Under the pieces are notes generated by a model, which saw nothing but the letters and a program-made list of their open reading frames with translations, was not told where the DNA came from and did not search any database. Below are positions 8,811 to 40,148 of a stretch of DNA of 64,000 bases, one piece after another. Every line of letters begins with the position of its first letter. Within the stretch, counting starts at the first letter, position 1. The position numbers were made by a program, and so were the translations under genes. This stretch comes from an uncultured Pelagibacteraceae bacterium (lineage in GTDB: Bacteria; Pseudomonadota; Alphaproteobacteria; Pelagibacterales; Pelagibacteraceae): NCBI GenBank assembly GCA_902578525.1, contig CACHDJ010000003.1, positions 1 to 64,000 of the forward strand. The letters run 5' to 3'.

Positions 8811-8842
8811 AAAAAGGGCTAGATTTTTCTAGCCCTTTTTTT
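8811..8842 (+). terminator. Intrinsic terminator between aapJ and aapQ
   Basis: AAAAAGGGCTAGA-TTTT-TCTAGCCCTTTTT, perfect 13-bp stem plus T tract. Confidence 0.9.
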
Positions 8843-24476: not shown

Positions 24477-24508
24477 AAAAAAGGGGGTCTTTTTAGACCC
24501 CTTTTTTT
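24477..24508 (+). terminator. Intrinsic terminator between pstS and pstC
   Basis: AAAAAAGGGGGTCT-TTTT-AGACCCCTTTTTTT hairpin plus T tract. Confidence 0.9.
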
Positions 24509-35838: not shown

Positions 35839-36567
35839 TTATTTTTTGTCTTCCCAATCAAATCTTGGAAAAGAATCAAAAATTTTAAAGATACCGTCCG
35901 ACCACTGATCACAGACCTTAGAATATTCAGTATCGGTAATATTTAAGCATTTTTGTGAGGCAATTTTATATTCATCTTTTTTATAGACAGCAAAATCAAT
36001 AGGAGGGCCTACGGTTAAATCACTTTTTAATGTTGAGTCCATTGAAATCAAAGCACATCTTGATGCATCACCAATAGATACGCTTGGTTTTATAACTCTA
36101 TCTAAAATAGGTTTACCGTATTTTACTTCACCAATAACTAGATAAGGTTTGCTATCAGCTGGTTTAATATAATTTCCCTGAGAGTACACTAAGTACAATT
36201 CTAATGGTTGATCTTTAATTTGACCACCAACTAAAAATGACGAACCTAATAAAACTGTATCTGTGTTTATTCCTTTTGGTGCTGAATGTTTAATATTTAA
36301 TGAACCAATGTAAGATGCAATTTGGTCGAAATCTTTGCATGTGTTTAAATTTATACCATTGTCACCTTTAAGATCATTTTCAATAGATTTATATACTGCT
36401 TGGGATGTACCTAAGTTTCCAGAAGTAACTATAATAACACTTCTATCCCCAACGTCATGAACAAACATTTTTGAGTAAATATTGACATTATCTAATCCAG
36501 CATTTGTTCTAGAGTCTGAGGCAAAAACAATTCCGTCATGGGCTTTAATACCAACACAATAAGTCAT
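35839..36567 (-). CDS. Proteasome-type peptidase, Anbu/BPH family (COG3484-like)
   Basis: MTYCVGIKAHDGIVFASDSRTNAGLDNVNIYSKMFVHD - Ntn-hydrolase with Thr at position 2. Confidence 0.88.
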   Translation of the reverse strand: MTYCVGIKAHDGIVFASDSRTNAGLDNVNIYSKMFVHDVGDRSVIIVTSGNLGTSQAVYKSIENDLKGDNGINLNTCKDFDQIASYIGSLNIKHSAPKGINTDTVLLGSSFLVGGQIKDQPLELYLVYSQGNYIKPADSKPYLVIGEVKYGKPILDRVIKPSVSIGDASRCALISMDSTLKSDLTVGPPIDFAVYKKDEYKIASQKCLNITDTEYSKVCDQWSDGIFKIFDSFPRFDWEDKK

Positions 36568-36640
36568 AATACTATTAATAATTATTAATTAATTAACATA
36601 TAATTAAATTCAAGCATAGCTGATATAACTATATCGCAAT

Positions 36641-36670
36641 TGATTGTTTACCCTAATTATTAAACAATCA
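36641..36670 (+). promoter_or_regulatory. Perfect inverted repeat 4 nt before the ATP-grasp start codon
   Basis: TGATTGTTTA-CCCTAATTAT-TAAACAATCA, 10-bp perfect stem, followed by TTCT and ATG. Confidence 0.7.
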
Positions 36671-36674
36671 TTCT

Positions 36675-38117
36675 ATGAGCGGGAAACTCTGGGATAATTA
36701 CAATGCTACTAAAGCATATGATGGTTATTTTACCAATGAAAATAAATTAAGAAAACATGCCGTTATAATTTCAAATATTTTAGAGAGATATGGTAAAGAA
36801 AAACTTCAAGAAATAGAAAAAAATTGTCAAAGTACAATAAGTGCTAGAGGAATTAACTTTAGAGTTTATGCTGCTAATAACAGGGCAGAGGAAAAGAAAT
36901 GGCCATTAGATATTATTCCAAGAATAATTCCTAAATCACAATGGAATAAAGTAACCAAAGGTTTAAAGCAAAGAGTTAAAGCCTTAAATTTATTTATAGA
37001 TGACGTTTATAATCAAAAGAAAATCTTTAAAGACAATATTGTTCCAAAAGATATCATTTTTAATTCACCTTACTATGTAAAAGAATGTGAAGGATTTTCG
37101 CCTAAATATAAATCATGGGCAAATATATCTGGAGTGGACTTAATCAGAAATAAAAATGGTGACTATTTGGTGCTCGAAGATAATCTAAGAGTACCTTCAG
37201 GAGTTTCTTATATGCTCGAGAATAGAATGGTTATGAGAGATGTATTTCCTGAACTTTTTACAAGATATAAAGTTGCATCAATACATCAATACACCAACAA
37301 ACTTTTCAACTGTATGAACGAATGCATCCCCAAAAAAACAGCTCATCCCCACATGGTAGTACTTACACCAGGGATTTATAATTCTGCTTATTTTGAACAT
37401 TCTTTTTTAGCTGAACAAATGGGTATTGCATTAGTAGAAGGAAAAGATCTTTTTGTTGAAAATGATAATGTTTATATGAAGACTGTAAAAGGTCCTTTGA
37501 AAGTTGATTGTATATATAGAAGACTAGACGATAATTTCTTAGACCCAAAAGCCTTCAATAAAGATTCTGTTATTGGTGTTCCAGGATTATTTAAATGTTG
37601 GTTAAAAAAAAATGTAGGTATAATAAATGCAGTAGGAACAGGTGTTGCTGATGATAAGGTTGTTTATTCTTACGTAAATAAGATGATTGTTTACTATTTG
37701 GGAGAGCAACCTATCTTAAATCAAGTCGAGACTTATTTGTGTCATGAGGAAAGTCAAAAAAAATATGTGTTAGACAATTTATCGAAATTAGTCGTTAAAC
37801 CAGCTAATGCCTCTGGTGGATATGGAATAATGATAGGTCCGAAGGCTTCATCAAAAGAAAGAGAAGAGGTGGCAGGGAAAATTAAAAAAAATCCAAGAGA
37901 ATATATTGCACAACCATTGGAAACATTATCAACAGCACCAACGATTACTGAAAAAAACATTGAACCTAGACATCTAGATTTAAGACCATTTGTGTTAAGT
38001 GGTAAAACTAATTATGTAACAACAGGTGGACTTACTAGAGTTGCTCTTAGAGAAGGAAGCACAATTGTAAATAGTTCTCAGGGAGGTGGATCAAAAGATA
38101 CTTTAATAGTTGAATAA
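36675..38117 (+). CDS. Circularly permuted ATP-grasp family protein (COG2308/DUF407-like)
   Basis: DDVYNQKKIFKDNIVPKDIIFNSPYYVKECEGFSPKYKSWANISGVDLIRNKNGDYLVLEDNLRVPSGVSYMLENR; KPANASGGYGIMIGP. Confidence 0.9.
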   Translation: MSGKLWDNYNATKAYDGYFTNENKLRKHAVIISNILERYGKEKLQEIEKNCQSTISARGINFRVYAANNRAEEKKWPLDIIPRIIPKSQWNKVTKGLKQRVKALNLFIDDVYNQKKIFKDNIVPKDIIFNSPYYVKECEGFSPKYKSWANISGVDLIRNKNGDYLVLEDNLRVPSGVSYMLENRMVMRDVFPELFTRYKVASIHQYTNKLFNCMNECIPKKTAHPHMVVLTPGIYNSAYFEHSFLAEQMGIALVEGKDLFVENDNVYMKTVKGPLKVDCIYRRLDDNFLDPKAFNKDSVIGVPGLFKCWLKKNVGIINAVGTGVADDKVVYSYVNKMIVYYLGEQPILNQVETYLCHEESQKKYVLDNLSKLVVKPANASGGYGIMIGPKASSKEREEVAGKIKKNPREYIAQPLETLSTAPTITEKNIEPRHLDLRPFVLSGKTNYVTTGGLTRVALREGSTIVNSSQGGGSKDTLIVE

Positions 38118-38121
38118 CTTT

Positions 38122-38529
38122 TTATCTAGTATTACACTTTTTACATAATCCAAAAAACTCAAGATTGTATTTACTATATTTCATACCATCTTTGTCTTTG
38201 AAATTAGCTAAGTATTTAGAAAGACTTGCGCTACTTATTTCTGTAACTTTTTCACAAATCTCGCAGATTGAAAATGCAGTAGCTTTAGCTACCTGACAGC
38301 TCGAATTATGGCAGGCAATAAAGGCATTTCGACTTTCGATTTTATGAATTTTTCCCATTTCAACTAATTTGTCTAATGCTCGATAAACCTGTGGTGGGGC
38401 TTTGATACCTTTTTTTTGAACATTAAAAAGTATTGAATAAGCTTTTAAAGGCTCAGGAGATTTATCAATTAAATCAAAAATAATTCGCTGATTTTTTGTG
38501 AGAGTATGTTCTTTATGCATTGTTTTCAT
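38122..38529 (-). CDS. zur: Fur-family regulator, probable Zur
   Basis: HTH + metal sites (HNSSCQ, FSICEICEKV, LCKKC); adjacent to znuBC. Confidence 0.88.
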   Translation of the reverse strand: MKTMHKEHTLTKNQRIIFDLIDKSPEPLKAYSILFNVQKKGIKAPPQVYRALDKLVEMGKIHKIESRNAFIACHNSSCQVAKATAFSICEICEKVTEISSASLSKYLANFKDKDGMKYSKYNLEFFGLCKKCNTR

Positions 38530-40133: not shown

Positions 40134-40148
40134 TGTTATATTATAACA
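40134..40148. promoter_or_regulatory. Putative Zur box (perfect)
   Basis: TGTTATA-T-TATAACA, 7-1-7 palindrome matching the known Zur core TGTTATAnTATAACA, in the znuC/znuA divergent promoter. Confidence 0.82.

Follow-up and report, generated by a model that had tools for sequence, protein, structure and literature searches.

Anbu (ancestral beta subunit) is a proteasome-like Ntn hydrolase with no established function or substrate. According to the passages of PMC6376114 and PMC5666114 that cite Iyer et al. (2009), the Anbu operon comprises genes for Anbu, a CP-ATP-grasp protein, an Alpha-E protein and a transglutaminase-like protein, and these two structural papers describe Anbu as induced under nitrogen starvation. 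When P. putida is on nitrate instead of ammonium, expression of Anbu and CP-ATP-grasp is higher by 4.44 and 3.99 log2, respectively (PMC8050072), and the same gene pair are putative targets of NtrC/sigma-54. As for SAR11, its only sigma factors are sigma-70 and sigma-32 and NtrX has been named as its nitrogen-limitation regulator (PMC13198564), while the synthesis of glucosylglycerate is a mark of SAR11 offshore and of nitrogen limitation (PMC12636525).

A two-gene Anbu cassette in SAR11

The 64-kb stretch of DNA analysed here (the window) belongs to a SAR11 genome; among its named relatives, the nearest are single-cell genomes of uncultured Pelagibacteraceae. Two divergent genes in the window encode clear members of the Anbu and CP-ATP-grasp families:

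35839-36567, minus strand: Anbu, 242 aa, matching PDB Anbu chains (best E 1.1e-60)
36675-38117, plus strand: circularly permuted (CP) ATP-grasp type 2 protein, 480 aa, PF14403 (E 1.2e-156), a relative of PDB 3n6x

Both families co-occur in SAR11, as evidenced by the presence of the ATP-grasp gene in all 36 Anbu-positive genomes common to both searches. Unlike the four-gene operon, however, the SAR11 arrangement consists of two divergent genes with a common spacer, in which a conserved block is located. Alpha-E was absent from the 13 genus genomes tested but turned up in all three order relatives, and no transglutaminase-like gene was seen on reading the flanking ORFs of 16 loci. Because the neighbours of the pair differ from clade to clade, the two genes and their spacer behave as a cassette, with which no linked regulator gene travels; the divergent pair is a mobile form of the Anbu operon that consists of two genes and lacks Alpha-E. 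Occurring in bacteria that are among the most abundant in the ocean, this minimal form offers a place to look for the function of Anbu.

The neighbourhoods of the pair across SAR11 clades (L032-L111) include zur/znu, a carB-like gene, a sugar ABC transporter and gpgP-gpgS, and their variety resembles that of a hypervariable region. In several genomes (L081, G004, G078, G308 and others) the glucosylglycerate genes gpgP and gpgS lie directly downstream of the ATP-grasp gene, an order which suggests an operon joining Anbu-type functions to glucosylglycerate synthesis, and links the genes to a nitrogen-free osmolyte pathway. Two order-level relatives (L020 and L221) carry the genes for ATP-grasp, Alpha-E and transglutaminase-like proteins in a row with no Anbu beside them, the reverse of the genus, where Anbu and ATP-grasp occur without Alpha-E.

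A conserved promoter-like block between the divergent genes

The spacer contains the following elements, of which the palindrome was the subject of the original prediction:

36614-36637, no strand: conserved operator-like dyad, GCATAGCTGATATAACTATATCGC in the window (degenerate)
36640-36645, plus strand: candidate -35 element TTGATT, overlapping the left hairpin arm
36641-36670, plus strand: reported palindrome TGATTGTTTA-CCCTAATTAT-TAAACAATCA, with 10-bp arms and a 10-nt loop
36655-36668, plus strand: candidate -10 region AATTATTAAACAAT (consensus AAnTATTAAACAnT), overlapping the loop and the right hairpin arm
36669-36674, plus strand: unconserved variable stretch before the ATG, 3-8 nt in orthologues

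The dyad, the TTG and AAnTATTAAACAnT are conserved genus-wide, across 80 sequences. All aligned orthologues have the TTG at 36640-36642 unchanged, and even the most diverged of them retain CATA..(A/T)G.TAT together with this TTG. Spacing is fixed as well, the sole gap between 36614 and 36668 being at position 36668, in three sequences. Among 2591 diverged pairs, identity was 0.79 in the dyad, 0.78 at 36638-36648 and 0.82 at 36655-36668, compared to 0.45 at fourfold sites in the same pairs, so that the dyad is constrained relative to neutral sites; it was low at 36649-36654 (0.45) and at 36669-36671 (0.30). Such a pattern fits a putative binding site next to a -35/-10 promoter whose start region is unconstrained. 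The ATG itself is aligned in 77 of the 80 sequences, and the ATP-grasp start at 36675 is well supported by this alignment. A consensus promoter scan called no sigma-70 promoter for the ATP-grasp gene.

Judging from these sequence comparisons, it is likely that 36614-36674 is an activator-driven promoter/operator common to the divergent Anbu and CP-ATP-grasp genes, with the hairpin being promoter DNA. In this reading the dyad, which has its centre near 36625, would be bound by a dimeric transcription factor whose gene lies at another place in the genome. The bound factor would most likely act as an activator of RNA polymerase at a weak sigma-70 promoter, and the -35 and -10 bases of this promoter would run through both arms of the reported hairpin. 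Activator-dependent divergent bacterial promoters provide the general class for comparison, and the locus resembles them in having one dyad between divergent genes, a poor -35 element adjoining it and a fixed spacing to the -10 region. The claim that the ATP-grasp gene is under dedicated control thus stands in part: the conserved dyad and promoter elements support it, but the site is common to Anbu and does not serve ATP-grasp alone.

In many relatives the dyad takes the form GCATA-N3-GATATATC-N3-TATGC, from which we infer two-fold (dimer) binding. Its symmetry is perfect in 8 of the 80 orthologues, and 47 of them hold 5-6 of 9 pairs. The dyad may nevertheless not bind a dimer, given that the window copy is degenerate and about half of the alignment is asymmetric.

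The register of the -10 element is ambiguous. With TATTAA (36658-36663) transcription would start near 36670, and with AACAAT (36663-36668), at a distance of 17 nt from the invariant TTG, the first transcribed base would be the A of the ATG. Since either register puts the start at or after about 36670, the hairpin would lie outside the mRNA, as promoter DNA and not as an RNA structure. Transcription is thus predicted to begin within about 5 nt of the ATG, giving an ATP-grasp mRNA that is leaderless or nearly so. Short or absent leaders look common in the window, because other genes carry TATAAT-like hexamers at positions of about -17 to -13 relative to their start codons. The lack of a Shine-Dalgarno sequence before the ATP-grasp ATG, as originally pointed out, is borne out by the sequence. 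It is, however, the norm in this genome and not special to the ATP-grasp gene: 44 of the 55 window genes have no motif of this type in the right place, and GGAG, GAGG or AGGA occurs at -18 to -4 in the other 11, versus a background of about 5%.

Recurrence of the dyad

Searching with the perfect-dyad pattern (at most one mismatch) gave matches in 21 of 201 genus genomes and none with the reversed control. Nineteen of these 21 sites precede the ATP-grasp gene and two precede gpgP(-gpgS) elsewhere in the genome. A looser pattern, again without control matches, gave 31 sites in 79 genomes, and the Anbu/ATP-grasp spacer accounts for 28. The usual number of strong sites per genome is one. Allowing three mismatches in 11 genomes added only sites inside coding sequence, so that no broad dyad regulon was found. 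The gpgP copies count against the activator-driven promoter/operator, because their distance from the dyad to AACAC is 4 nt shorter and the -10 region is therefore misaligned there. Both may go back to one rearrangement of an ATP-grasp-gpgP-gpgS operon that left the promoter before gpgP, and not to independent recruitment. In the genome of the window, gpgP-gpgS follows an ABC ATPase gene on contig 6, and no dyad-type module was found upstream of it.

The conserved block could alternatively be a divergent promoter that is constitutive and has no regulator of its own, in which the dyad symmetry is incidental; the degenerate window dyad, the single strong site in most genomes and the lack of a regulator gene linked to the cassette all agree with this. 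We regard it as unlikely, given that conservation reaches well upstream of the -35 element over a 24-bp block, and that the dyad is met again in its perfect form in many species and before gpgP in two genomes.

The palindrome next to the ATP-grasp start codon

The hairpin at 36641-36670 is exactly as originally described, a perfect stem whose right end is 4 nt from the ATG. The window is AT-rich, and contains eight perfect inverted repeats (arms of at least 10, loops of 3-20) compared to a mean of 7.0 (range 3-11) in 15 dinucleotide-preserving shuffles of the window; with at least two G/C per arm, five were found versus 0-5 in the shuffles. Palindromes of this size class are within chance expectation for the window, and one of them before a start codon is unremarkable because shuffled sequence holds similar numbers. 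The reported stem is present in the minimum-energy fold of a 141-nt region, which is just mildly more stable than its shuffles (z = -2.06; 6 of 200 equally stable). No intrinsic terminator was called at the locus.

Expected to be conserved, the perfect stem was found in the window and in only one of 79 orthologues (L048). Nine of the ten pairs are kept in 13 further orthologues, all close relatives of the window sequence, and at most seven pairs in 51 of the 79. Change at the outermost stem pairs and on one side of the apex is as fast as at fourfold sites or faster, and identity at the non-promoter bases of the hairpin is 30-45% among diverged orthologues. In the most diverged orthologues the hairpin is gone and the promoter-like block is still recognisable.

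It was considered whether the palindrome might be a lineage-specific second operator, a repressor site over the promoter that was gained in the clade of the window. A repressor over the -35 and -10 elements would occupy a natural place, and most close relatives retain the inner 8-10 pairs (at least nine pairs are held by 15 of the 80 sequences). These relatives, however, have almost the same sequence throughout the promoter, so that retention of the pairs is no sign of selection on symmetry, and the terminal pairs vary even among them. Together with the equal frequency of such palindromes in shuffled sequence and the single occurrence of the TGATTGTTTA/TAAACAATCA arm pair in its own genome (up to three mismatches allowed), this makes a second operator quite improbable. 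No second copy of the palindrome was detected in the window or, at the same tolerance, in its own genome, on which grounds a repeated operator was rejected, and the suggestion that the palindrome itself is a DNA operator did not hold. Lack of conservation had been named in the original prediction as grounds for refutation, and on that basis the hairpin itself does not count as a control element. The hairpin is a true observation, and its symmetry almost certainly a lineage-specific coincidence.

Similar to translation-blocking leader hairpins, the stem adjoins a start codon, and at least eight of its ten pairs are retained in 26 of the 80 sequences, all near relatives. In contrast to such leaders, it displays neither covariation nor conservation and is probably not transcribed. 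In a 35-sequence alignment, 70.9% of the cells at the stem are paired, compared to 70.1% with shuffled partners; only a single double-sided change was observed, and no covariation that would maintain the stem was seen. RNAalifold consensus folding predicted zero pairs, and an Rfam search of the region returned no match at E <= 1. Slid stem registers pair at 28-55%, worse than the actual register, although this comparison is biased toward the actual stem, as the structure was derived from one of the aligned sequences. The constraint on T36668 does not come from pairing, because this T is invariant while its partner 36643 varies. Promoter-like bases also overlap the stem. A structured RNA leader was rejected because covariation, a consensus fold, an Rfam match and conservation were all lacking. 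Despite the perfect 10-bp stem in the minimum-energy fold, a translation-regulating RNA hairpin that would mask the initiation region from within the 5' leader, be it a thermometer, a repressor site or a leader switch, is hardly tenable given these results, the drifting outer pairs, the predicted start at or after about 36670 and the missing Shine-Dalgarno sequence that is normal in this genome. A false lead, the translation-control hairpin, is thereby replaced by a testable cis-element.

A putative nitrogen-responsive activator

Because Anbu, CP-ATP-grasp and glucosylglycerate are all linked to nitrogen limitation elsewhere, nitrogen-responsive activation appears the likeliest role of the conserved promoter/operator, by analogy with distant species on which nitrogen control rests. 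One control region probably switches on Anbu and ATP-grasp together, most likely under nitrogen scarcity, and a conserved promoter common to both genes gives a concrete condition, nitrogen limitation, under which Anbu might be studied. The case of P. putida is similar in the gene pair concerned and possibly in the nitrogen signal. Unlike P. putida, SAR11 has only sigma-70 and sigma-32, so a factor other than NtrC/sigma-54 is needed; NtrX is a candidate regulator from the literature (PMC13198564). It is possible, though we offer this tentatively, that a SAR11 regulator acting without NtrC/sigma-54 uses the dyad to turn on, from leaderless transcripts, both the stripped-down Anbu/ATP-grasp pair and the synthesis of glucosylglycerate, in the course of adapting to the nitrogen-poor open ocean.

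Other features of the window

Two further perfect, G/C-containing inverted repeats lie between genes, at 8811-8840 (AAAAAGGGCTAGA arms) and at 24477-24507 (AAAAAAGGGG arms), and look like intrinsic terminators. The sequence TGTTATATTATAACA at 40134-40148 is located between the divergent genes znuC (minus strand) and znuA (plus strand), beside a Zur-like gene (38122-38529, minus strand), and resembles the Zur box.
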